DNA of 64,000 nucleotides, from contig NZ_JAMCOS010000001.1 of NCBI RefSeq assembly GCF_028069655.1, forward strand, positions 1,766,001 to 1,830,000, written 5' to 3'. Of the stretch, positions 49,711 through 61,334 are shown in pieces. Position numbers and translations under genes: made by a program. Position 1 is the first letter of the stretch, and the number at the start of each line of letters is the position of its first letter. The DNA comes from Acidovorax sp. NCPPB 4044 (GTDB lineage Bacteria > Pseudomonadota > Gammaproteobacteria > Burkholderiales > Burkholderiaceae_C). Under the pieces are notes generated by a model. It was not told where the DNA came from and ran no database searches. It saw only the letters and a program-made list of their open reading frames with translations.

Positions 49711-50283
49711 TCAGCGTTCGCGCGGCACCCGGCCCATCAGGTAGAACTCGGGGTTGGGTTGCATGCCCGCGAAACTCGCCATGCGGTTGGAGAGGCCGAA
49801 GAACGCCGTGATGGCCGCGATGTCCCAGATGTCCTCGTCGTCGAAGCCGTGCGCGTGCAGCGCGGTGAAGTCGGCGTCGTCGATCTCGTGCGAGCGCTGG
49901 CAGACCTTCATCGCGAAGTCCAGCATGGCGCGCTGGCGCGGGCTGATGTCGGCCTTGCGGTGGTTCACGGCCACCTGGTCGGCCACGAAGGGCTTCTTCT
50001 CGTAGATGCGCAGGATCGCGCCGTGCGCCACCACGCAGTAGAGGCACTGGTTGGCCGCGCTGGTGGCGGTCACGATCATCTCGCGCTCGCCCTTGGTGAG
50101 GGAGCCTTCCTCCTTGAGCATGAGCGCGTCGTGGTAGGCGAAGAAGGCGCGCCATTCGGCAGGGCGGCGCGCGAAGGCGACGAAGACATTGGGCACGAAG
50201 CCGGCCTTTTCCTGCACTTCGCGGATGCGGGCCTGGATGTCTTCGGGCAGCGTGTGGATTTCGGGGAGGGGGTAGCGGCTCAC
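49711..50283 (-). CDS. Peroxidase-related enzyme (AhpD/carboxymuconolactone decarboxylase fold)
   Basis: 190 residues. The redox centre CLYCVVAHG (CxxC...H) near residue 91 marks the AhpD/CMD family of alkylhydroperoxidase-like proteins. GTG at 50283 has GGAG eight bases upstream. A conserved EVQEKAGFVPNVF opening fits the uncharacterised peroxidase-related subgroup. It lies between the multicopper oxidase and the IclR gene, on the same strand as both. Confidence 0.88.
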   Translation of the reverse strand: MSRYPLPEIHTLPEDIQARIREVQEKAGFVPNVFVAFARRPAEWRAFFAYHDALMLKEEGSLTKGEREMIVTATSAANQCLYCVVAHGAILRIYEKKPFVADQVAVNHRKADISPRQRAMLDFAMKVCQRSHEIDDADFTALHAHGFDDEDIWDIAAITAFFGLSNRMASFAGMQPNPEFYLMGRVPRER

Positions 50284-50333: not shown

Positions 50334-51164
50334 TCACGGATGCCAGTGGCTCGCGCGCGTGGCCAGCGGCGCCGGCGTGGCGGCGCTGCCCGCGAGGGCA
50401 TACGAGAGCTGGGTGGCTGCCGAGACCACGGTCTGCGCCAGGGACTCGAGCTTGTCCGGCGGCAGCCGCGAGGCGGGCCCCGAAATACACACCGAGCCGA
50501 GCAGCCGCCAGTGCAGCCCGAACACGGGGGCGGACACGGTGGCCACGCCCTGTTCGCGCTCGCCGATGGACCAGTGGTAGCCGCGCTGGCGGATCTGCTC
50601 GTAGTCCGCGCCGGGCGCGCCCGAGAACGCGAGGATCACGCGGCCCGGGGAGCCTTTGTCCAGCGGCAGCCCTTCGCCCATCCGCGCATGGTGGCGCAGC
50701 GCCTGCGGGCCCTCCACGCGCACGAGGCAGGTGCGGACGTCCCCTTCGCGCACATAGAAGGCCGCGCTCTCGCCGCTGGCCTGGGTGAGCGCGCGCAGGG
50801 CGGGCTCCAGCACGTTCTGCACGTCGAAGCCTGCCTGGTAGCGCGCACCCAGCCAGCCTGCCGCGGGGCCCAGCCGCCAGTCGCCGTCCTCCCGCTGCAC
50901 CAGGTAGCCGGACTGCGCCAGCGTGCGCGCCAGCCGCAGCACGGTGGTCTTGTGCAGCGCGCAGCGGCGGCTCAGCTCGGCCAGCGACAGGTGCGATTCG
51001 CCCAGCGCGAAGGCGGCCAGCACCTGCAGGGCCCGCGTGACGGCGGTCACGCCACCATCGCGCCCTGCAACCGGCGGGTCGGGCGGCCGCGCCGGTGGCG
51101 GCGCGGATCGGCCGGTGGCGTCCACCGTGGAGGGCGGGGCTGGCGGAGGGCGGCGGTTGCTCAT
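50334..51164 (-). CDS. IclR family transcriptional regulator
   Basis: 276 residues. After a proline-rich leader (about 1-40), the winged helix (VTRALQVLAAFALGESHLSLAELSRRCALHKTTVLRLARTL) and the IclR effector domain follow (SGESAAFYVREGDVRTCLVRVEG, GSPGRVILAFSG). Divergent from a Bug-amidohydrolase gene cluster that it very likely controls; two direct repeats lie in the shared gap. Confidence 0.92.
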   Translation of the reverse strand: MSNRRPPPAPPSTVDATGRSAPPPARPPDPPVAGRDGGVTAVTRALQVLAAFALGESHLSLAELSRRCALHKTTVLRLARTLAQSGYLVQREDGDWRLGPAAGWLGARYQAGFDVQNVLEPALRALTQASGESAAFYVREGDVRTCLVRVEGPQALRHHARMGEGLPLDKGSPGRVILAFSGAPGADYEQIRQRGYHWSIGEREQGVATVSAPVFGLHWRLLGSVCISGPASRLPPDKLESLAQTVVSAATQLSYALAGSAATPAPLATRASHWHP

Positions 51165-51184
51165 GGTGGTATGCGTTGTGTTGT

Positions 51185-51212
51185 GCGAAACGGCATTGTA
51201 TGGAGCGAAACG
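51185..51212. promoter_or_regulatory. GCGAAACG direct repeats in the IclR/Bug divergent gap
   Basis: GCGAAACG at 51185-51192 and 51205-51212, 20 bp apart (two helical turns). Candidate IclR-family binding sites; the second overlaps an AAACGTTT palindrome. Confidence 0.45.
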
Positions 51213-51282
51213 TTTTTCTACAGTGCGTTCCAGGCCGGGCTGCACGCCACGGCGGCAAGAACACAACGACGGAGACAACGAC

Positions 51283-52287
51283 ATGCCTTTCCTGACGCAC
51301 ACGCGTTCCGCCCTTCCGCGCCTCGGCGCGCTGCTGATCGGCTGCGTGGCCGCAGCCACTTTTGCCACCGGCGCCGCCGCGCAGGCCGCATGGCCGGCCA
51401 AGCCGATCCGGCTCATCGTGCCCTTCCCGCCGGGCGGCGGCACCGACATGATCGCCCGCACCGTGGCGCAGAAACTGGCCGACCAGAACCGCTGGAACGT
51501 GGTGGTGGACAACCGCCCCGGCGCTGGCGGCAACCTGGGCGTGGACGCGGCCGCGAAGTCGGCGCCCGACGGCTATACCCTCGTGATGGGCCAGACGAGC
51601 AACCTCGCGATCAATCCTTCGCTCTATGCCAAGCTTCCGTACGACCCGCTGAAGGACCTCGTGCCCGTGGCGCTGGTGTCCTCTGCGCCGATCGTGATGG
51701 CCGCGCCCGCCAATTCGCCCTACAAGACCTTCGCCGACGTGGTGGCCGCCGCCAAGGCCAGGCCCGACGGCATTACGCTGGGCTATTCGGGCAACGGCAC
51801 GGTGGCCCACCTGGCGGGCGAGCTGGCCGAGAACGCCGCCGGCATCAAGCTGCGCCACGTGCCCTACAAGGGCGCATCGCAGGCCATGACCGACCTGGTG
51901 GGCGGTCAGATCGATCTCTACATGTCGGCCGTGCCGACGCTGCTCGGCCAGGTGCGCAACGGCAAGCTGCGCGCGGTCATGATCACCTCGCTCAAGCGCT
52001 CCGACCAACTGCCGCAGACGCCCACGCTGGCCGAGTCCGGCTACAAGGATTTCGAGGCCGCTTCGTGGTTCGGCGTGCTGGCCCCTGCGGGCACGCCGGC
52101 ACCCATCGTGCAACAGCTCAACAAGGCCATCAACCAGGCGCTGGCCCAGCCCGATGTGGCCGAGAAGCTGCGCTCCGAGGGCGGCGACGTGCTGGGCGGC
52201 ACGCCCGAGAAGTTCGGCGCGCTGCTCAAGGCCGAAGTGCCCCGCTGGGCCAGGATCGTCAAGGACTCCGGCGCCAGCCTGGACTGA
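51283..52287 (+). CDS. Tripartite tricarboxylate transporter substrate-binding protein (Bug family)
   Basis: 334 residues with a signal peptide (about 1-34, ending GAAAQAAW) and the Bug loops RLIVPFPPGGGTDMIART, VDNRPGAGGNLG and HVPYKGASQAMTD. First gene of the IclR-controlled cluster. ATG at 51283 follows GGAG at 51271-51274. Ligand presumably the cluster's substrate. Confidence 0.92.
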   Translation: MPFLTHTRSALPRLGALLIGCVAAATFATGAAAQAAWPAKPIRLIVPFPPGGGTDMIARTVAQKLADQNRWNVVVDNRPGAGGNLGVDAAAKSAPDGYTLVMGQTSNLAINPSLYAKLPYDPLKDLVPVALVSSAPIVMAAPANSPYKTFADVVAAAKARPDGITLGYSGNGTVAHLAGELAENAAGIKLRHVPYKGASQAMTDLVGGQIDLYMSAVPTLLGQVRNGKLRAVMITSLKRSDQLPQTPTLAESGYKDFEAASWFGVLAPAGTPAPIVQQLNKAINQALAQPDVAEKLRSEGGDVLGGTPEKFGALLKAEVPRWARIVKDSGASLD

Positions 52288-52324
52288 CGGCAGCCCCCCC
52301 GCCATCCCTCGCTGCTCTCCGACG

Positions 52325-53239
52325 ATGTCCGCTCTGCCACGCGACAGCTCCGCCGTGCCCGTGCGCTTTTCCGCCGGCACCGCCGCGCCGCGCACGCCGC
52401 TGCCGGCAGGGGCCTGCGACTGCCATGCGCACGTCTATGACGGCCGCTTCCCGGCCGCGCCGGGCGCCCGGCTGCGGCCGCCCGACGCCTCGGCGCAGGA
52501 TCTGCGCGCGCTGCAGCGGCGCATCGGCACCGCGCGCACGGTGTTGGTCACGCCGTCCACCTACGGCACCGACAACCGCTGCATGCTCGAAGGGCTGGCC
52601 GCGCTCGGCGCAGCGGCGCGCGGCGTGGCCGTGATCGACGGCAGCGAGGGCGACGCCGAACTGCAGCGCCTGCACGCGGCCGGTGTGCGCGGCGTGCGGC
52701 TGAACCTCTCGCTCGGCGTCTCGGGCACGGCGCAGTCGCTGGCCCCGCTGGCCGAGCGCATCGCGCCGCTCGGCTGGCACCTGCAGTTGCTGATGGCGCC
52801 CGACCTGCTGGCCGCGCAGGCCGGCGTGCTGCGCGCGCTGCCGGTGCCGCTGGTGTTCGACCATTTCGGCCGCATCCCGCCCGCGCTCGCGGGGCGCCAC
52901 CCAGCCCACGCCGTGTTGCTCGGCCTGCTGGAGCGCGGGCAGGCGTGGGTCAAGCTGTCCGGTGGCTACCTCGTGAGCGAGCACCGCTCCGTGGAAGACC
53001 CGGCACTCGACGCGCTGGCCGCCAGTTATCTGCGCTGCGCGCCCGGGCGCGTGCTGTGGGGCAGCGACTGGCCCCACGCCACGGCCACGGCCGGCGAGCA
53101 GCCCCTTCCGGACGACGCACGGCAGGTGGACCGCCTCGCCGACTGGGCGGCTGTCGCGGGCGGTGCCGCAACGCTGCGGCGCGTGCTGGTGGACAACCCG
53201 GCCGCGCTCTACGGCTTCGCGCCGCTTTCCCTTTCCTGA
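52325..53239 (+). CDS. LigI-like amidohydrolase family protein (first paralog)
   Basis: 304 residues of the TIM-barrel amidohydrolase-2 family (COG3618), which hydrolyses lactones such as 2-pyrone-4,6-dicarboxylate, galactarolactone or rhamnonolactone. Visible motifs: CDCHAHVYD near the start, VTPSTYGTDNRC, FDHFGR, WVKLSGGY and GSDWPHAT with the catalytic Asp. ATG at 52325 comes soon after the Bug stop. Paralogous to the gene at 58057; both carry VTPSTYGTDN and WGSDWPH. Confidence 0.88.
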   Translation: MSALPRDSSAVPVRFSAGTAAPRTPLPAGACDCHAHVYDGRFPAAPGARLRPPDASAQDLRALQRRIGTARTVLVTPSTYGTDNRCMLEGLAALGAAARGVAVIDGSEGDAELQRLHAAGVRGVRLNLSLGVSGTAQSLAPLAERIAPLGWHLQLLMAPDLLAAQAGVLRALPVPLVFDHFGRIPPALAGRHPAHAVLLGLLERGQAWVKLSGGYLVSEHRSVEDPALDALAASYLRCAPGRVLWGSDWPHATATAGEQPLPDDARQVDRLADWAAVAGGAATLRRVLVDNPAALYGFAPLSLS

Positions 53240-53264
53240 ACCCTCTTCACCGAGAGACGAGACC

Positions 53265-54284
53265 ATGGCTGCACCTGCCGCTTCCCCTTCTGCTTCCGGG
53301 CTCTCCCGCCGCGGGCTGATTGCCGCTGCCGGCGCCGCGCTGCTGGGCGCGGCGCCCACCGCTCCGGCGATGGCCCAGGGCGAGTGGCCCGCCGGCAAGG
53401 TCATCACCTGGGTGGTGCCGTACCCGCCGGGCGGCAGCACCGACGTGCTGGGCCGCAACATCGCGCAGCGCGTGGGCGCGGCCCTGGGCACCACGGTGAT
53501 CGTGGACAACAAGGCCGGCGCCACGGGCACCATCGGCGCGGCCTTCGTGGCCAAGGCCGCGCCGGACGGCACCACGCTGCTGGGCACGTCCATCGGCCCG
53601 CAGGCGATCGCGCCGCACCTCATGGGCAAGCTGCCGTACGACCCCATCGCGGGCTTCGAGCCGGTGGCGATCCTCGGCACGATCCCGCACATCCTGGTCG
53701 TGGGCGCGAACCAGCCTTTCAGGGCGGTGGCCGACCTGCTGGCCGCGGCCAAGGCCGACCCGGGCAAGCTGGCTTTCGCCTCGGGCGGCAACGGCACGAT
53801 CCTGCAGATGCAGGGCGCGCTGCTGCAGCAGAAGACCGGCGCCCGGTTCATCCACATCCCCTACAAGGGCGACACCCCGGCGCTGCAGGACACGCTGGCC
53901 GAGCAGGTGCAGTTCATGTTCGCGCCCGCCGCCGCCGCGCTGCCGCACGTGCAGTCGGGCAAGCTGCGCGCGCTCGCCGTCACCTCCGCGCAGCGCCTGA
54001 ACGCGCTGCCCGCGGTGCCCACGATGGCCGAGGCGGGCGTGGCCGATTTCGTGGTCGAGCAGTGGCAGGCGGTCTTCGCGCCCGCCAGGACGCCGGCGCC
54101 CGTCGTGCAGCGCCTGAACCAGGAGATCAACCAGGCACTGAAGGACCCGGCCGTGGCCGCGCTGGCCGGCAAGCTCGGCATCACGCTGGTCGGCGGCACA
54201 CCGCGGCAACTGGGCGACCTGCAGAAGGCCGATTCCGCCCAGTGGGCCCGGGTGATCCAGGCCGGAAACATCAAGGCCGACTGA
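53265..54284 (+). CDS. Tripartite tricarboxylate transporter substrate-binding protein (Bug family)
   Basis: 339 residues with a twin-Arg-like leader (SRRGLIAAAGAALLG, cleavage near MAQ), then VTWVVPYPPGGSTDVLGR, VDNKAGATGTIG and HIPYKGDTPALQD. The RR pair with a long hydrophobic run suggests possible Tat export. Second Bug protein in the cluster, 25 bp after the amidohydrolase stop. Confidence 0.92.
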   Translation: MAAPAASPSASGLSRRGLIAAAGAALLGAAPTAPAMAQGEWPAGKVITWVVPYPPGGSTDVLGRNIAQRVGAALGTTVIVDNKAGATGTIGAAFVAKAAPDGTTLLGTSIGPQAIAPHLMGKLPYDPIAGFEPVAILGTIPHILVVGANQPFRAVADLLAAAKADPGKLAFASGGNGTILQMQGALLQQKTGARFIHIPYKGDTPALQDTLAEQVQFMFAPAAAALPHVQSGKLRALAVTSAQRLNALPAVPTMAEAGVADFVVEQWQAVFAPARTPAPVVQRLNQEINQALKDPAVAALAGKLGITLVGGTPRQLGDLQKADSAQWARVIQAGNIKAD

Positions 54285-54353
54285 CGGCCCCGCCAATCCC
54301 TCCTGCCGGCACCGCAGGGATTCCCTTTTCCACCCGCAACGCAACGCACCACC

Positions 54354-55040
54354 ATGAACGCACTTCCCGAAATCATCCGTGACATCGAGCGCGTGAGCGC
54401 CGACGTCGTCGCCCGGGCCGCTACCTTCCAGGCAGCCATCCTCGCCGACGTGGCCGGCCGCCGCGGCACCCTGCATGGCCGGGTCTCGCCCGTGCACCAG
54501 AGCATGAAGGTGGCGGGCCCGGCCTTCACCGTCGAGGTGCGCCCCGGCGACAACCTCATGGTCCACGCCGCCATCGCGCTCGCCCAGCCCGGCGACGTGC
54601 TGGTGATCGACGGCAAGGGCGACCGGACCGCGGCGCTCATGGGCACGCTGATGCTGAGCGCCTGCAAGAAGCGCGGGCTCGCCGGCGTGATCGTGGACGC
54701 GGCCATCCGCGACAAGCTGGAGATCCTGGAGCTGGACTTCCCGGTGTTCAGCGCCGGCTTCAATCCCGCCGGGCCCACCAAGTACGTGCCCGGCCGCATC
54801 AACCACCCGATCTCGGCCGGTGGCGCCGTGGTGAACCCGGGCGACCTGGTGGTGGGCGATGCCGACGGCGTGGTCGTGATCGAGCGTGCGAAGGCCCCGG
54901 CCATGCTGGCCCTGGCCGACCGGAAGGTGGCCGACGAGGCCGCCCGCATCGAGGCCATCGCCCGCGGCGACACGGCGTCCAAGTGGCTGCCCGCCGCGCT
55001 GCGCGCCGCCGGCATGCTCAAGGAAGGAGAGTCGCTGTGA
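54354..55040 (+). CDS. RraA/HMG-CHA aldolase family protein
   Basis: 228 residues. The aldolase-type active-site motif is present: GVIVDAAIRDKLEI carries the Arg-Asp pair used by class II pyruvate aldolases (HMG/CHA aldolase), and VIDGKGDRTAALMGTLM precedes it. These enzymes cleave 4-hydroxy-4-methyl- or 4-carboxy-4-hydroxy-2-oxoadipate to pyruvate plus oxaloacetate; E. coli RraA itself inhibits RNase E. The pathway setting favours the aldolase reading. Stop overlaps the next start (GTGA). Confidence 0.87.
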   Translation: MNALPEIIRDIERVSADVVARAATFQAAILADVAGRRGTLHGRVSPVHQSMKVAGPAFTVEVRPGDNLMVHAAIALAQPGDVLVIDGKGDRTAALMGTLMLSACKKRGLAGVIVDAAIRDKLEILELDFPVFSAGFNPAGPTKYVPGRINHPISAGGAVVNPGDLVVGDADGVVVIERAKAPAMLALADRKVADEAARIEAIARGDTASKWLPAALRAAGMLKEGESL

Positions 55041-55978
55041 GCGCCCCCGCCATCCTCGTGACCGGCGCCGACCTGGCCCGGCAGGCGCTGGACCTGCTCC
55101 AGGATTTCGAGGTCGTGTATGCCGGCAAGGCACCCACCGAGGCGGACCTCGTGGCGCTGTGCCGCCAGCACGACCCGGTGGCCATCATCGTGCGCTACGG
55201 CAAGGTGGGCGCGGCCACCATGGATGCCGCGCCGTCGCTCAAGGTGATCTCCAAGCACGGCAGCGGCACCGACACCATCGACAAGGCGGCCGCGAAGGCG
55301 CGGGGCATCGAAGTGGTGGCGGCGGTGGGAGCGAATGCCGCCGCCGTGGCCGAGCAGGCGCTGGCGCTGCTGCTGGCCTGCGCCAAGTCGGTAGTGGAAC
55401 TGGACGCGCGCATGCACGCCGGCCACTGGGACAAGGCCACGCACAAGAGCCTGGAGCTGGGCGGGCGCACCGTGGGGCTGGTGGGCCTGGGCGCCATCGG
55501 CCTGCGCTTCGCGAAGATGGCCGATGCGCTCGGCATGCGCGTGATCGGCTTCGATCCTTTTGCGAAGAACCTGCCGGACTCCGTGCAGAGCGTGGACCTG
55601 GCCACGATCTGGCGCGAATCGGATGCGATCTCGCTGCACTGTCCGCTCACCGACGAGAACCGCGGCATGCTGAACGCCGGCACGCTGGCGCAGTGCAGGC
55701 GCGGCGTGATCGTGGTCAACACGGCGCGCGGCGGGCTGATCGACGAAGCCGCGCTGCTGGCGGCGGTGCGCTCGGGCCAGGTGATGGCGGCGGGCCTGGA
55801 CAGTTTCGCGGTCGAGCCCATGGTCGCGGGCCACCCGTTCCAGGGCGAGAAACGCTTCATCCTGAGCCCCCACATCGGCGGCGTGACGGGCGATGCCTAC
55901 GTGAACATGGGCGTGGGCGCCGCGAAGAACCTGCTCGACGTGCTCGGCCGCAGCCGCGCGGCCCTGCCCACGGCATGA
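55037..55978 (+). CDS. D-isomer 2-hydroxyacid dehydrogenase
   Basis: 313 residues. VGLVGLGAIGLRFAKM is the NAD-binding loop; catalytic Arg in NTARGGLIDEAAL, Glu in SFAVEPM and His in PHIGGVTGDAY. It begins with GTG at 55037 overlapping the aldolase stop, with AGGAGA upstream. It probably oxidises or reduces a 2-hydroxy or 2-oxo acid in the same pathway. Confidence 0.9.
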   Translation: MSAPAILVTGADLARQALDLLQDFEVVYAGKAPTEADLVALCRQHDPVAIIVRYGKVGAATMDAAPSLKVISKHGSGTDTIDKAAAKARGIEVVAAVGANAAAVAEQALALLLACAKSVVELDARMHAGHWDKATHKSLELGGRTVGLVGLGAIGLRFAKMADALGMRVIGFDPFAKNLPDSVQSVDLATIWRESDAISLHCPLTDENRGMLNAGTLAQCRRGVIVVNTARGGLIDEAALLAAVRSGQVMAAGLDSFAVEPMVAGHPFQGEKRFILSPHIGGVTGDAYVNMGVGAAKNLLDVLGRSRAALPTA

Positions 55979-56027
55979 GCCAGGCGCCGCGGGCTGCCCG
56001 ATACAAGAAAAAAGGAGACACACAGAA

Positions 56028-57020
56028 ATGTTCAAGCCATATCGCCTCCATGTCGCCGGAAAATGGACCTCGATAGCTATTGTTTTGATAGCAAGTGGCG
56101 CGGCTTTCGCACAGGCGGACGGCTATCCGGCCCGGCCCGTGCGCCTGGTGGTGGGCTTTGCCGCGGGCGGGCCGACCGACGTGGTGGCCCGCGCGTTCGC
56201 GGAGCAGGCCGGCCGCACGCTCGGCCAGCCCTTCGTGGTGGACAACAAGCCCGGCGCCAACACCATCCTCGCGGCGCAGGCCGTGGCCGGCGCACCGGCC
56301 GACGGCTACACGCTGCTGTTCGGCGCCATCAACCACACGATGATCCCGGCGCTCTACAGCACGCGCGTGAAGTTCGATGCCGTCAAATCCTTCCTGCCGC
56401 TGTGCACGGTGGCCACCAGCCCGACGGTGCTGGTCGTGGGGCCGTCGTTGCCCGTGCGTTCGCTGCCCGAATTCCTGGACCGGGCGCGCCAGGCGCCGGG
56501 GCGCACCACCGCCGGATCGGCCGGCGTGGGCAGCTCGGGCCATTTCGCCACCGAGATGTTCGCCCGGGCCAACGGGCTGCGGCTCAACCACGTGCCCTAC
56601 AAGGGCGCCGCGCCCGTGGTCACCGACCTGATGGGCGGGCAGGTGGACAGCTCCTTCGCCACGTTGGGCTCGGTGCTGCCGCAGGTCCAGGGCGGCAAGC
56701 TCACGGCGCTGGCCGTGGCGTCGCCGCGGCGCTCGGCCCTGCTGCCCGGCGTGCCCACCTTCGCGCAGGCGGGCGGCAAGGATTTCTCCGCCGATGCGTG
56801 GTACGGCGTGCTGGCCCCTGCGGGCACGCCGCCCGCCATCGTGCAGACGCTGGAGCGCGCCGCCACGGCGTTCGCGCGCAGCGAAGCCACCGCCGAGAAG
56901 CTGCGCGGCCTGGGGATGGAAGCATCGCTGCGCTGCGGCGAGCCTTTCGTCCGGCAGGTGCGCGAAGAGACCGAGGCCCATACCCGCATCGCACGGGAAC
57001 TCGGCCTGCAGGCCGACTGA
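56028..57020 (+). CDS. Bug family binding protein with repeat-derived signal peptide
   Basis: 330 residues. Signal peptide KWTSIAIVLIASGAAFAQ, then RLVVGFAAGGPTDVVAR, VDNKPGANTILA and HVPYKGAAPVVTD. The first loop has GFAAGG in place of PFPPGG, a variant Bug loop. The hydrophobic core of the leader (codons around 56073-56098) is the dispersed repeat core in sense, with AT-rich codons unlike the rest of the gene. AAAGGAG precedes the ATG. Confidence 0.9.
   Translation: MFKPYRLHVAGKWTSIAIVLIASGAAFAQADGYPARPVRLVVGFAAGGPTDVVARAFAEQAGRTLGQPFVVDNKPGANTILAAQAVAGAPADGYTLLFGAINHTMIPALYSTRVKFDAVKSFLPLCTVATSPTVLVVGPSLPVRSLPEFLDRARQAPGRTTAGSAGVGSSGHFATEMFARANGLRLNHVPYKGAAPVVTDLMGGQVDSSFATLGSVLPQVQGGKLTALAVASPRRSALLPGVPTFAQAGGKDFSADAWYGVLAPAGTPPAIVQTLERAATAFARSEATAEKLRGLGMEASLRCGEPFVRQVREETEAHTRIARELGLQAD
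56071..56098 (+). repeat. Dispersed repeat core inside a Bug signal peptide (copy 5)
   Basis: GATAGCTATTGTTTTGATAGCAAGT, matching TTTGATAGCAA of copy 4 and the ATAGCTATT side of the hairpin. It is in frame and encodes SIAIVLIAS. Confidence 0.65.
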
Positions 57021-57074
57021 ACGACCGGGGCCCGCCCCGCATCGCCGAACCTTTTTTCCTGGAGACAGACAACC

Positions 57075-58049
57075 ATGCGCACCCACCCCTTCAAGACCTT
57101 CGCCCGCGGACTGCTGGCCGCCGCCTGCGTACTGGCCGGCGCCGCGGCACACGCCGCGTTCCCCGAGCGCACGATCACCATCGTCGTGCCCTACGCGCCC
57201 GGCGGCGCGGCCGATGCGGTGGCGCGCGTGCTGGCGAGCGGCATGGGCACGAAGCTTGGCACCTCGGTGATCGTGGACAACAAACCCGGCGCGAGCGGCA
57301 CGATCGGGGCGGCCTTCGTGGCCAAGGCGCCGGCGGACGGCTACACCATGCTCTACGACGCCACGCCGTATTCCATCAATCCGCACCTGTTCGCGAAGAT
57401 GCCGTATGCGGCCAACGCCCTGCAGCCGCTGTCGCTGGTGCTGCTGGCGCCCAATGTGCTGATCGTCAAGGCCGATTCGCCCTTCAAGACGGTGAACGAC
57501 CTCGTGGCGCGCGCCAAGGCGCAGCCCGGCAAGCTCAACTTCGCTTCCGGCGGCAGCGGCACGGTGCAGCGGCTGGCGGCCGAGCTGTTCCGCCAGCGCC
57601 TGCAGCTCGACATGGTGCACGTGCCCTACAAGAGCGGCGGCCCGGCAATCGCCGACGTGATGGGCGGGCAGGTGGATTTCATGTTCGGCACCATCGCGGC
57701 CACGTACCCGCTGGTGTCCGGCGGCAAGTTGCGGGCGCTGGCGATCTCCTCGCCCGAGCGCTCTGCGCGCCTGCCCGACGTGCCCACCGTGGCCGAGGCG
57801 GCCGTGCCCGGCTACGAGGCGTACGAATGGAACGGCGTGCTGCTGCCGGCCGGCACGCCCGCGCCCGTGGCGGCGCAGCTGCACAAGGCGCTGGCCGAAG
57901 TGCTGAACGAAGACGAGGTGAAGCAGCGCCTCTCCGACCTGGGCGCCCGGCCCATCGGGTCCACGCCCGCCGAGTTTGCCGAATTCCTCAAGAAGGAAGA
58001 CGCCAAGTGGGGCGCCGTGGTGCGCCAGGGCGGCATCCAGCTCGACTGA
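57075..58049 (+). CDS. Tripartite tricarboxylate transporter substrate-binding protein (Bug family)
   Basis: 324 residues with a signal peptide (about 1-27, ending AAHAA) and Bug loops ITIVVPYAPGGAADAVAR, VDNKPGASGTIG and HVPYKSGGPAIAD. Fourth Bug protein of the cluster. GGAG at 57060-57063 lies eleven bases before the ATG. Followed by the second amidohydrolase after 7 bp. Confidence 0.92.
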   Translation: MRTHPFKTFARGLLAAACVLAGAAAHAAFPERTITIVVPYAPGGAADAVARVLASGMGTKLGTSVIVDNKPGASGTIGAAFVAKAPADGYTMLYDATPYSINPHLFAKMPYAANALQPLSLVLLAPNVLIVKADSPFKTVNDLVARAKAQPGKLNFASGGSGTVQRLAAELFRQRLQLDMVHVPYKSGGPAIADVMGGQVDFMFGTIAATYPLVSGGKLRALAISSPERSARLPDVPTVAEAAVPGYEAYEWNGVLLPAGTPAPVAAQLHKALAEVLNEDEVKQRLSDLGARPIGSTPAEFAEFLKKEDAKWGAVVRQGGIQLD

Positions 58050-58056
58050 CCGCGGC

Positions 58057-58968
58057 ATGGCTCCCGATCCGACCCGGGCACCGGTGCCGCATTCAGCGGG
58101 GATGAACCGGCCGGCGCGCGCGCTGCCGCCGCTGGCCTGCGACAGCCACATGCACGCCTTCGACGCGCGCTTCGCGCCGTCGCCGCACTGGCCGCGCACA
58201 CCGCCCGACGCACCCGTGGCCGCCTACCGGCGGCTGCAGCGGCGACTGGGCACCGCGCGCGCGGTGGTCGTCACGCCGTCCACCTACGGCACCGACAACG
58301 CCTGCACCCTCGATGCGCTGGACCAGCTGGGCGACAGCGCGCGCGGCGTGGCCGTGGTGGGCGAGGGCGCCACCGATGCCGAGCTGGACCGCCTGCACGC
58401 CCGCCGCGTGCGGGGGCTGCGCGTGAATTTCGTTTCGCCCCAGTCCTGGGGCGAGACCACCCCGGCGATGCTGGCCACGCTGGCGCGCAAGGCGGCGCGG
58501 TTCGGCTGGCACCTCCAGGTCTTCGCCCACCCGGAGCAGATCGTGGCGCTCGCGCCCCTGCTGCGCACGCTGCCAGTGCCGCTCGTGATCGACCACCTGG
58601 GCCGCATCGATCCGGCCGGGGGCGCCTGCGGGCCCGCCTGGCGCGTGCTGCTCGGGCTGCTGGACGGCGGCAACACCTGGGTGAAGCTCTCGGGTGCCTA
58701 CATGCGGTCCACCGTGCACGGCGCGGGCCGCTATGCCGACACCCTGCCGTTGGGCCGCGCGCTGGTGCAGGCCGCGCCCGAGCGGCTGGTGTGGGGCAGC
58801 GACTGGCCCCACACCACCGAGGCGCCCGGCACGGTGAACGATGCCGATCTGCTCGACCTGCTGCGCGATTGGGCCGGCTCGGACGCGGCGATGGATGGCA
58901 TCCTCGTGCGCAACCCCGCGCGGCTCTACGGCTTCGATGCGCCCGACGCACCGCTGGGAGCCGCTTGA
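58057..58968 (+). CDS. LigI-like amidohydrolase family protein (second paralog)
   Basis: 303 residues from ATG 58057; an internal ATG at 58102 is an alternative. Motifs CDSHMHAFD, VTPSTYGTDNAC, IDHLGR, WVKLSGAYM and GSDWPHTT align with the paralog at 52325. It should hydrolyse a lactone or pyrone. The following gene encodes a further lactonase, so the pathway likely meets more than one lactone or the two paralogs act in series. Confidence 0.87.
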   Translation: MAPDPTRAPVPHSAGMNRPARALPPLACDSHMHAFDARFAPSPHWPRTPPDAPVAAYRRLQRRLGTARAVVVTPSTYGTDNACTLDALDQLGDSARGVAVVGEGATDAELDRLHARRVRGLRVNFVSPQSWGETTPAMLATLARKAARFGWHLQVFAHPEQIVALAPLLRTLPVPLVIDHLGRIDPAGGACGPAWRVLLGLLDGGNTWVKLSGAYMRSTVHGAGRYADTLPLGRALVQAAPERLVWGSDWPHTTEAPGTVNDADLLDLLRDWAGSDAAMDGILVRNPARLYGFDAPDAPLGAA

Positions 58969-59014
58969 CGCATCGCCCCGCAATCCCGCCCCAAGCAAAG
59001 AAAGCCGAGACTCC

Positions 59015-59941
59015 ATGTTCCTGCTCGAAGCCCCGCAGATCCGCCCGCTGGAGCCCTTCACCTCCCTGCCCGAAGCCTACCGCCGCCGCGAGCGCAGCGA
59101 GTGGGCCGACGCCAACCGCGGCGGCACGGTCACCGACTCGTTCCTGGAGGGCCCGGTGTTCGATGGCGCCGGCAACCTCTACGTCGCCGACATTCCCTGG
59201 GGCCGCATCTTCCGCATCGACCCGCAGGGCGCATGGAGCCTGGTGGCGGAGTACGGCGGCGAACCCAACGGCATGAAGTTCCTCGATGCCGACACGCTGC
59301 TCATCGCCGATTACAAGAACGGCCTCGTGCGGCTGCACGTGCCCAGCGGCACCGTTACCCCGTTCCTGGAGCGGCGCAACAGCGAGCGTTTCAAGGGCGT
59401 GAACGACCTGACCTTCGACGCCGAAGGCAACCTCTACTTCACCGACCAGGGCCAGAGCGGCCTGCACGACCCGAGCGGCCGGCTCTACCGGCTGCGGCCG
59501 AGCGGCCAGCTCGACCTGCTGCTGGCCAACGTGCCCAGCCCCAACGGCGTGGCGCTCTCGCCCGACGGCCGCGTGCTGTACCTGGCCGCCACGCGCGGCA
59601 ACTGCGTGTGGCGCGTGCCGCTGCTGCCGGACGGCAGCGTCGCCAAGGTGGGCCAGTTCTTCACCTCGTATGGCCCGAGCGGCCCGGACGGGCTGGCCGT
59701 GGACGCCGAGGGCCGCGTGCTCGTGGCCAACCCGGGCCTGGGCGTGGTGTGGGTGCTGAACGGCCGTGCCGAGCCGGTGGAGGTGCTGCGCGGCGTGCCC
59801 GGCAGCTCCACCACCAACCTGGCCTTCGGCGGCCCGGGACGGCGCGGGCTGTTCGTGACCGACTCCACCCACGGGCAGATCCTGCACGCCCCGATGTCCG
59901 CGGCGGGCCTGCCGGTCCACCGCGCCGCGCCGCTCTCCTGA
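59015..59941 (+). CDS. SMP-30/gluconolactonase family protein
   Basis: 308-residue six-bladed propeller hydrolase. Metal-ligand motifs are visible: EGPVFDGAGNLYVAD, GEPNGMKF, GVNDLTFDAEGNLYFTD, PSPNGVALSPDG and GPDGLAVDAEG. Family members open aldonolactones or related lactones using a divalent metal. Last gene of the cluster; no strong terminator is seen, but a GC-rich run and TTTTT at 59993-59997 follow. Confidence 0.9.
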   Translation: MFLLEAPQIRPLEPFTSLPEAYRRRERSEWADANRGGTVTDSFLEGPVFDGAGNLYVADIPWGRIFRIDPQGAWSLVAEYGGEPNGMKFLDADTLLIADYKNGLVRLHVPSGTVTPFLERRNSERFKGVNDLTFDAEGNLYFTDQGQSGLHDPSGRLYRLRPSGQLDLLLANVPSPNGVALSPDGRVLYLAATRGNCVWRVPLLPDGSVAKVGQFFTSYGPSGPDGLAVDAEGRVLVANPGLGVVWVLNGRAEPVEVLRGVPGSSTTNLAFGGPGRRGLFVTDSTHGQILHAPMSAAGLPVHRAAPLS

Positions 59942-60053
59942 GGTGCGGGCGGCGGCCGCGCCTGCCGCCATCGCCGGGGCGGAACTTCGGGTTTTTACCG
60001 AGCCGGAGGGCGCGCATGCATACACTTGACGCAACGCAAACGAAAGGTGACGC

Positions 60054-61334
60054 ATGCACTTCGATATCGTGATCGTAGGGGGCGGGGCCGGCGGCCTGGA
60101 ACTGGCGGCCCGGCTGGGGCGGGGCCTGGGCCAGCGCCTGGGCCGCGAGCGCATTCTGCTGGTGGACCGCAGCCCCTTCCACATCTGGAAGCCCACGCTG
60201 CACGAAGTGGCGGCCGGCACGCTCGATGCCCACCAGGAGGGCCTTTCGTACACGGTGCTCGCGCGGCGCAACCATTTCAGCTATTCGATGGGCGAGCTGG
60301 CAGCGCTGGACGGCGCCCGCAAGATGATCACGCTGTCGGAGATCCGCGATGCCGAGGGCGAGATCATCGTGCCGCAGCGCGTGGTCAGCTTCACGCGGCT
60401 GGTGCTGGCGATCGGCAGCGGCTCCAACTCCTTCGGCACGCCGGGCATCGAGCATGCCTACCTGCTGGAGAACGTGCGCGATGCGCAGCGCTTCCATGCC
60501 GACTGGCTGGCCGCCTGCGCGCGCGCCGCGTTCTCCGAGAGCCGCTCGCTGGGCGTGGCCATCGTGGGGGGCGGGGCCACCGGGGTGGAGCTGTCGGCGG
60601 AACTGCTGGAGGCCTACGCCGAGATCCAGGAGAGCCTGGGCAGCAGCCAGCGATTTCGCCTCGACATCACGCTGGTCGAAGGCGGCCCGCGCATCCTGGG
60701 CGGTTTGCCCGAGAAGATCTCCGCCCAGGCCGCCGTCGCCCTGCAGCGCAAGCAGGTGCAGGTCCGCACGGGCACGCGCGTGACAGAAATCCGCCGCGGC
60801 GAACTCGTCACGCCCGCAGGCAACGTGCCGGCCGAGATGATCGTCTGGGCGGCCGGCATCAAGGCCGCAGACACCAACGGCCGCATGGGACTGGCAGTGA
60901 ACGGCCTCAACCAGTTCGTCGTGGACGACCGGCTGCGCACCTCGGTGCCGGGCATCTACGCCTTCGGCGACTGCGCCGCGTGCCCCTGGGTGGACGGCAA
61001 GCTGGTGCCCGCGCGTGCGCAGGCCGCGCACCAGCAGGCCGAATACCTGGCGCGCGTGCTCTCCGCGATGCTGCGCGAGCACGAGATCGCCGAGCCCTTC
61101 GCCTACCGCGACTTCGGCTCGCTGGTCTCGCTGGGCGACAACAAGGGCGTGGGCAACCTCATGGGCGGCCTGGCAGGGCGCAACTTCTTCGTCGAGGGCC
61201 TGATCGCGAAGTGGATGTACATGTCGCTGCACCTGAACCACCACCGCGCCATCCTCGGCGTGGGCAAGACGGCGGTGCTGGCCCTGGCGCGGCTGCTGCA
61301 GCAGCGCGTGTCCGGGCGCCTCAAGCTGCACTGA
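60054..61334 (+). CDS. ndh: NAD(P)/FAD-dependent oxidoreductase, type II NADH dehydrogenase
   Basis: 426 residues. Two Rossmann nucleotide motifs (VGGGAGGLELAARLG near the start, VAIVGGGATGVELSAEL near 170) bind FAD and NADH, and PGIYAFGDCAA is the second FAD contact. The C-terminus has amphipathic helices (LMGGLAGRNFFVEGLIAKWMYMSLHL) that would attach it to the membrane. It would pass electrons from NADH to quinone without pumping. AAGGTGA precedes the ATG by four bases. Confidence 0.9.
   Translation: MHFDIVIVGGGAGGLELAARLGRGLGQRLGRERILLVDRSPFHIWKPTLHEVAAGTLDAHQEGLSYTVLARRNHFSYSMGELAALDGARKMITLSEIRDAEGEIIVPQRVVSFTRLVLAIGSGSNSFGTPGIEHAYLLENVRDAQRFHADWLAACARAAFSESRSLGVAIVGGGATGVELSAELLEAYAEIQESLGSSQRFRLDITLVEGGPRILGGLPEKISAQAAVALQRKQVQVRTGTRVTEIRRGELVTPAGNVPAEMIVWAAGIKAADTNGRMGLAVNGLNQFVVDDRLRTSVPGIYAFGDCAACPWVDGKLVPARAQAAHQQAEYLARVLSAMLREHEIAEPFAYRDFGSLVSLGDNKGVGNLMGGLAGRNFFVEGLIAKWMYMSLHLNHHRAILGVGKTAVLALARLLQQRVSGRLKLH

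Follow-up and report, generated by a model that had tools for sequence, protein, structure and literature searches.

A putative IclR-controlled catabolic island in Acidovorax sp. NCPPB 4044: a conserved RraA–dehydrogenase core with co-inherited hydrolase–binding protein modules

A stretch of 64,000 nucleotides of the bacterium Acidovorax sp. NCPPB 4044 (hereafter the window, in whose numbering coordinates are given unless a locus is named) contains a ten-gene locus at 50334-59941, in which a minus-strand gene for an IclR-family regulator (50334..51164; HTH_IclR and IclR_C above their Pfam cut-offs) diverges from nine plus-strand genes. From 51283 to 59941, these run in the order Bug1, AH1, Bug2, RraA, HADH, Bug3, Bug4, AH2 and SMP-30. 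Bug1 (51283..52287), Bug2 (53265..54284), Bug3 (56028..57020) and Bug4 (57075..58049) are TctC-type binding proteins of the periplasm, matching PF03401 with 255.7, 238.2, 225.9 and 242.8 bits, respectively. AH1 (52325..53239; 159.8 bits), which we take to be COG3618, and AH2 (58102..58968, alternative start 58057; 169.2 bits) are PF04909 amidohydrolases of the LigI kind. RraA (54354..55040; PF03737, 158.6 bits) is a predicted RraA-type class II aldolase, HADH (55037..55978; PF02826, 180.8 bits) a predicted D-2-hydroxyacid dehydrogenase, and the last gene (59015..59941) encodes a protein of the SMP-30/gluconolactonase family (PF08450, 144.1 bits against a cut-off of 26.3). Pfam cut-offs are passed by all ten proteins. 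A preliminary description, made from the letters of the window, had the gene kinds and boundaries exactly right, and its tight or overlapping starts are borne out by gaps of at most 69 bp among the nine genes and a single overlap, of 4 bp, between RraA and HADH. Identity among the four Bugs is 35-45% and AH1 is 49.6% identical to AH2, which argues against a recent tandem duplication.

The arrangement recurs well beyond this genome. A scan of named genomes gave 505 confirmed relatives, of which the 80 best were kept, the named ones being mostly Comamonadaceae; 69 of the 80 loci were usable for counting co-occurrence (ten had a short flank and one was without an RraA match over the rule). Orthologues were called by identity cut-offs, which differ between this count and the tree described below, and by these cut-offs all ten genes stand together in 28 of the 69 loci. 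Within the genus, 14 of 17 genomes, our own included, have an RraA orthologue that is 90% or more identical. Of the 13 others, six have exactly the nine genes, three have extra or replaced Bugs, one is without an intact Bug2 and three retain only IclR, Bug1, RraA and HADH. The genus is taken to be Paracidovorax; among its named members are P. konjaci, P. oryzae, P. cattleyae, P. anthurii and P. valerianellae, with P. konjaci nearest (RraA 96%). A Variovorax plasmid has the identical gene order at 59-83% identity. The recurrence of the ten genes and of RraA within the genus shows that the arrangement is not due to chance. A lack of conserved gene order in relatives would have counted against the preliminary description, and the comparison of loci did not refute it on this point. 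The first binding protein goes with the core: Bug1 is found in 67 of the 69 loci, and 67 likewise have an IclR sharing 50% identity or more. LysR takes the place of IclR in Comamonas antarctica and OTU4NAUVB1.

RraA and HADH are the core of the cluster and older than it, and the hydrolases are accessory. The two co-occur in 67 of the 69 loci. A survey of 398 genomes of the phylum, with the line for HADH drawn at 375 bits after the scores had been viewed (the next match has 348 bits), places HADH at 24 sites; at 22 of these RraA lies at most 300 bp away, spanning 21 genomes, and of the two exceptions one has RraA 5.6 kb off and the other no RraA over the threshold. On a Roseomonas plasmid, HADH stands without an annotated RraA alongside. 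Twenty further stretches were fetched, 17 of which match both core genes; among these 17, eight have a hydrolase match (SMP-30 or amidohydrolase), 15 a transporter and three an FMN-oxidase, the one in L148 being FMN_dh by Pfam. TctCBA genes lie near the pair in Agrobacterium, Alloyangia, Ketogulonicigenium and Martelella records (in Alloyangia, a PF04909 amidohydrolase accompanies TctABC), and an FMN-type 2-hydroxyacid oxidase in two Agrobacterium vitis plasmids. A TRAP system is also met beside the pair (nearest solved protein of the TRAP partner, 4N4U). An MFS permease and SMP-30 stand beside the pair in Pantoea dispersa, Paraburkholderia and Caballeronia, the latter two additionally having a porin and a PF04909 amidohydrolase. 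In Pararhizobium, a CoA transferase and a CoA lyase lie near the pair. At L137:4765-6815 and in L144, a CoA transferase and an HpcH/HpaI-type CoA lyase lie immediately 5' of HADH-RraA, and in L137 an ABC importer occupies the place of the tripartite tricarboxylate transport (TTT) genes.

Our own genome contains a second cluster (C1:1184000-1203000, L041) with the order LysR, Bug, SMP-30, Bug, LysR, Bug, HADH, a FAD-linked oxidase, an amidohydrolase (PF04909) and RraA; its RraA is 55% identical to that of the window, and the Fe-S domain match of its oxidase falls below cut-off. Since flavin-dependent 2-hydroxyacid oxidases, of the FMN type or FAD-linked, occur near the pair or within such a cluster, the HADH reaction is most likely an oxidation, from a 2-hydroxy to a 2-oxo acid ahead of the aldolase.

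The active sites of the core enzymes are largely preserved. The nearest solved structure to RraA is the 4-hydroxy-4-methyl-2-oxoglutarate/4-carboxy-4-hydroxy-2-oxoadipate (HMG/CHA) aldolase of Pseudomonas putida, 3NOJ. In the alignment, R123, D124, G101, H75, N71, R40 and K147 of 3NOJ are all kept; R119-D120 of the window protein corresponds to R123-D124, confirming the Arg-Asp pair that the preliminary description had picked out in its RraA-type aldolase. The roles of these residues as enolate-stabilising Arg, metal Asp and pocket residues are described in a study of HMG/CHA aldolase (PMC5065237). Against curated aldolase models, RraA remains below every cut-off (146.3 of 304.5 bits for TIGR02798, 167.8 of 179 and 223.6 of 231), and the first of these scores led to the rejection of RraA as LigK, the HMG/CHA aldolase proper. 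By the same TIGR02798 cut-off, the genome has no LigK, none of its three matches passing. HADH contains both Pfam domains, and R231, E260, H279 and D173 are invariant in 11 aligned rows. Arg, Glu and His are presumably the catalytic residues, and an Asp that closes the second Rossmann strand favours NAD as a general rule; with triad and Rossmann Asp kept, HADH is classed from its sequence as an NAD-type D-2-hydroxyacid dehydrogenase. An assignment as phosphoglycerate dehydrogenase was dropped (TIGR01327, 234.7 bits against a cut-off of 454).

The two amidohydrolases have LigI as their best PDB match, with 4MUP among their nearest solved relatives. We take D29, H31, H33, H180, D248 and R124 of LigI to be its hydrolytic set, and R130, Y156 and R217 to contact the carboxylates of 2-pyrone-4,6-dicarboxylate (PDC). 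The hydrolytic set is preserved: D29, H31, H33, H180 and R124 are kept in all 99 AH1 and AH2 orthologues and D248 in 98 of them. The three substrate contacts are replaced in all 99, by S at R130, by L or F at Y156 and by I, L or M at R217, so that the LigI-like label of the preliminary description stands for fold and hydrolytic residues and fails for these positions; AH1 and AH2 were accordingly rejected as LigI. They were also rejected as 4-sulfomuconolactone hydrolase (NF042924, 122.6 and 169.6 bits against a cut-off of 500). 4MUP is a D-galactarolactone isomerase (its PDB entry title reads AMIDOHYDROLASE) and belongs to the same fold family; it has Gln and Asn where AH1, AH2 and LigI have His31 (99 of 99 orthologues) and Asp248 (98 of 99). 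An assignment as this isomerase was discarded on this ground, and AH1 and AH2 therefore look like hydrolases. AH1 is set apart from AH2 by sites with a constancy of 95% or more in either group (e.g. LigI positions 49, 131, 156 and 218), which suggests that the two act on different substrates. Together with SMP-30, they are probable lactonases.

Other loci contain additional genes that may be of similar kind. A metallo-beta-lactamase-fold protein with a signal-like N-terminus is encoded between HADH and Bug3 at L116:11672-12691 and L111:11613-12701, and perhaps represents one more feeder hydrolase; similar gaps occur in L088, L101 and L112 (Pseudacidovorax/Xenophilus-type loci), Pfam having been run for L116 only. 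A 'cyclase family' gene follows HADH at L025:11622-12692 and L023:11612-12676 (PF04199 tested in L025) and is perhaps a further hydrolase.

Each hydrolase is co-inherited with a binding protein of its own: AH1 with Bug2, AH2 with Bug3 and SMP-30 with Bug4. Across the 69 loci, AH1 and Bug2 are both present in 45 and both absent in 23, with AH1 alone in one and Bug2 alone in none; the single AH1 without Bug2, in P. cattleyae, has a Bug2 remnant of about 112 residues beside it (L066:9618-9953). AH2 and Bug3 occur together in 39 loci, AH2 alone in eight, Bug3 alone in none and neither in 22; for SMP-30 and Bug4, the corresponding numbers are 45, 11, none and 13. AH2 and SMP-30 are found together in 47 loci, SMP-30 alone in nine and AH2 alone in none. 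The genes of the latter two modules are interleaved (Bug3-Bug4-AH2-SMP), and Bug4 and SMP-30 are retained with both Bug3 and AH2 absent in eight loci, a pattern that a single simple deletion would not produce. The environmental strain Acidovorax sp. GW101-3H11 (L054) has the core together with the Bug3-Bug4-AH2-SMP part. A tree was made of 75 RraA+HADH rows after edge loci and loci without an HADH match had been dropped, and on it independent pairs give concordant change for AH1-Bug2 in 14 of 14 (median p 0.0001), a mean of 7.7 against 0 for AH2-Bug3 (p 0.008) and 5.8 against 0 for SMP-Bug4 (p 0.03), all p values being uncorrected for eight tests. The non-cognate combinations are weaker, among them AH1-Bug3 (p 0.29) and AH1-Bug4 (p 0.125). 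The number of Bugs, any Bug counted, equals the number of hydrolases plus one in 67 of 77 loci (nine of 86 were dropped because the operon lies at an edge; L026 has one hydrolase and two Bugs), and the other ten have one Bug more; with a looser gap setting, the rule applies to 61 of 77, with 15 having one more and one having one fewer. The nearest solved relative of Bug4 is a terephthalate-binding protein (8hka, E=3.5e-73).

The region between IclR and Bug1 (51165..51282) was aligned with its counterparts, 92 intergenic regions in all, some from one genome twice. It contains a conserved 20-bp site at 51173-51192, reading GCGTTGTGTTGTGCGAAACG in the window and TCGTTTCATTGTGTGAAACG in the consensus of the 76 regions of non-split loci, from which a matrix was built. 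Conserved ATTGTAT and CTA-AGT sequences lie 3' of the site; a consensus promoter scan of 51165-51282 called no promoter, and they are therefore referred to as blocks only. In 16 split loci, two of which (L112 and L113) are near-identical, the operon lies apart from IclR-Bug1, and in all 16 the matrix finds a site within the 300 bp that precede the operon head. Fifteen of these sites outscore every one of 3200 control segments, whose maximum is 13.4 bits, and the last reaches 11.9 bits, a value attained by 0.06% of controls. A predicted operator shared by IclR-Bug1 and the split operon head points to one putative IclR regulon. The window copy is weak, with three mismatches to the scan consensus. 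With up to three mismatches allowed, the whole genome yields two matches, the site itself and one other, compared with four in a backward control; no further regulon targets can thus be claimed.

The import machinery encoded at the locus is not complete. The preliminary description had the cluster import its substrate, which is in keeping with the four binding proteins; however, the cluster contains no permease, and of the tripartite set it has four TctC, with TctA found only at two distant places and TctB not searched for. Genome-wide, these two TctA matches compare with 61 for TctC, where a few matches are parts of the same gene. A Rhodoplanes genome is likewise reported to have a great many TctC-type binding proteins (PMC5994714); the present case differs in that single Bugs are co-inherited with single hydrolases.

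With moderate confidence, we favour a reading of the locus as an IclR-controlled catabolic island in which a two-enzyme core is supplied by plug-in feeder modules and leads from lactone to pyruvate; substrate, reactions, Bug ligands and import are what we infer. AH1, AH2 and SMP-30 would hydrolyse different gamma-lactones of 2,4-dihydroxy acids, HADH would use NAD+ to oxidise a 2,4-dihydroxy (di)carboxylic acid at its C2 hydroxyl, and RraA, as a metal-dependent class II aldolase, would split the C3-C4 bond of the resulting 4-hydroxy-2-oxo acid into pyruvate and a second oxo-compound. A single C1-C4 unit of a 2,4-dihydroxy acid fits all three activities, since the lactone would engage the 4-hydroxyl, HADH the 2-hydroxyl and the aldolase the C3-C4 bond. 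The HMG/CHA-like pocket of RraA would favour a substrate with a second carboxyl group on C4, so that the other product would be a second oxo acid. Bug2, Bug3 and Bug4 may each bind the compound of their partner hydrolase and Bug1 may serve the free acid, with uptake presumably through a TctAB permease encoded elsewhere. Lactone opening, oxidation or reduction, and aldol cleavage had been proposed in the preliminary description; this sequence of steps remains the best reading and is backed by the neighbourhoods in other classes, with oxidation, rather than reduction, as the most likely middle step.

Several observations weigh against this reading. Of the 17 stretches that match both core genes, nine gave no match to a hydrolase from the query list. 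The annotations of P. vagans, A. fabrum, A. vitis, Ketogulonicigenium, Pararhizobium and one OTU4NAUVB1 plasmid show no hydrolase next to the pair, and eight of the 69 Comamonadaceae-type loci have the core only; lactones are therefore not essential to the core. Not all relatives of SMP-30 and of the amidohydrolases are lactonases. RraA has Pro in place of T145 of 3NOJ, and at R195 and E199, next to an indel, the alignment is ambiguous. As to the modules, the non-cognate pairs AH2-Bug2 (median p 0.07) and SMP-Bug2 (0.06) come near significance on the tree, the Bug-count rule has 10 or 16 exceptions among 77 loci depending on the gap setting, and linkage and common descent may account for part of the co-inheritance, mainly for the neighbours AH1 and Bug2. 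The missing permease belongs here as well. Finally, the RraA fold allows other chemistry, FlDet being a dehydratase/decarboxylase (PMC8563752).

The first rival retains the oxidation and replaces aldol cleavage with decarboxylation: HADH would convert a tartrate- or isocitrate-like acid into a beta-keto acid, RraA would be an oxaloacetate-type decarboxylase and the hydrolases would open the lactones of such acids. Oxaloacetate is indeed also decarboxylated by HMG/CHA aldolase (PMC5065237), and one Comamonadaceae plasmid has a 'tartrate dehydrogenase' gene close to the cluster. On A. fabrum pAt, HADH-RraA-TctCBA leads on to a second D-2-hydroxyacid dehydrogenase and a glycerate kinase (L130:12738-14986), which would fit hydroxypyruvate. 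However, the glycerate kinase was met in A. fabrum alone and was set aside as a pointer to a C3 product; a Sinorhizobium locus with the same TctCBA gave no match to the kinase in its stretch. Tartrate, moreover, forms no ordinary gamma-lactone by general chemistry, and decarboxylation appears unlikely overall.

A second possibility, distinctly doubtful in our view, is a route by way of a 3-deoxy-aldarate or 2-keto-3-deoxyglucarate, where RraA would work as an FlDet-like dehydratase/decarboxylase or as an aldolase yielding pyruvate and tartronate semialdehyde. Sugar acids are hinted at by the MFS partners, whose top models, below cut-off, are galactonate and 4-hydroxyphenylacetate permeases, by the presence of 4MUP, a galactarolactone isomerase, among the nearest solved relatives of AH1 and AH2, and by two records with DHDPS family and dihydroxy-acid dehydratase genes in the vicinity of the cluster or of HADH. 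The RraA-family enzyme FlDet acts on 2-keto-3-deoxyglucarate in the oxidative FlDet/FlDeg pathway for the alginate-derived 4-deoxy-L-erythro-5-hexoseulose uronate (DEHU), where, as here, such an enzyme serves sugar-acid catabolism after an oxidation; in that pathway, a semialdehyde dehydrogenase follows FlDet (PMC8563752). The window cluster has no such dehydrogenase, and none is listed in the annotated neighbourhoods examined. FlDet is reported to be 20% identical to the P. putida aldolase (PMC8563752), whose catalytic residues the window RraA keeps.

A place in the PDC branch of gallate or protocatechuate 4,5-cleavage, by LigI-type ring opening and CHA cleavage, is very improbable. The best PDB matches, LigI for AH1 and AH2 and HMG/CHA aldolase for RraA, do recall this branch. 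From PDC through 4-oxalomesaconate to CHA, it consists of LigI, LigJ and LigK, and the likeness lies in a LigI-fold lactonase that opens the ring and an RraA-fold aldolase that yields pyruvate and an oxo acid. The cluster differs from it in having no hydratase, nor any gene of another kind that would be fit as one, and in possessing two LigI-fold enzymes, SMP-30 and a 2-hydroxyacid dehydrogenase, the last of which is not known to have a place in the PDC pathway. AH1 and AH2 are without the three LigI positions presumed to contact PDC, RraA scores less than half of the LigK cut-off and the genome has no LigK above it. With the P. putida HMG/CHA aldolase itself, the window RraA shares the catalytic Arg, the metal Asp and most pocket residues; it stays under the curated cut-offs and is coupled to HADH instead of aromatic ring cleavage. 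A sulfolactate-type cluster, with IclR, TTT transport and D-2-hydroxyacid and FMN dehydrogenases resembling the slc system, unrelated hydrolases and 4-sulfomuconolactone hydrolase as the single NCBIfam model matched by AH1 and AH2, can practically be dismissed, as that model is missed so widely, the annotated neighbourhoods examined contain no gene listed as a sulfo-lyase (the genome was not searched for one) and RraA would be left without a role.

A further reading is conceivable and decidedly speculative: the island may recycle compounds formed by aldol addition between central 2-oxo acids, together with the lactones of these adducts, several lactonases with cognate binding proteins feeding one HMG/CHA-type aldolase. 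Candidates include parapyruvate and zymonic acid (both from the pyruvate dimer), oxalocitramalate lactone (from pyruvate and oxaloacetate) and their reduced forms. Recycling of this kind would return the parent 2-oxo acids and permit growth on supposed metabolic waste and abiotic dissolved carbon.

If the lactone-to-pyruvate reading is right, many Comamonadaceae share a catabolic pathway without an assigned substrate, its core lying side by side in 21 of the 398 sampled genomes, and RraA-family proteins named solely after RNase regulation would gain a metabolic home. The pattern of one hydrolase to one Bug could serve as a rule for assigning ligands, via the co-inherited enzyme, in a large Bug family whose function is mostly unknown. 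The parts belong to known families; for the assembly of a core with cognate hydrolase–Bug modules, queries with the gene sets and candidate pathways found no description in PubMed Central papers under CC0, CC BY or CC BY-SA.

Three further features flank the locus. A possible terminator hairpin lies 3' of SMP-30 on the plus strand (59974..59990), recognised by a pattern scan that finds seven such sites in the region compared with 4.1 (standard deviation 2.2) in shuffles. A possible type II NADH dehydrogenase gene, judged by eye, begins 113 bp past SMP-30 (60054-61334, plus strand). Behind IclR, a CMD/AhpD-like gene (49711..50283, minus strand; PF02627, 47.2 bits) occupies a matching position at many Acidovorax and Paracidovorax loci and probably lies outside the pathway.

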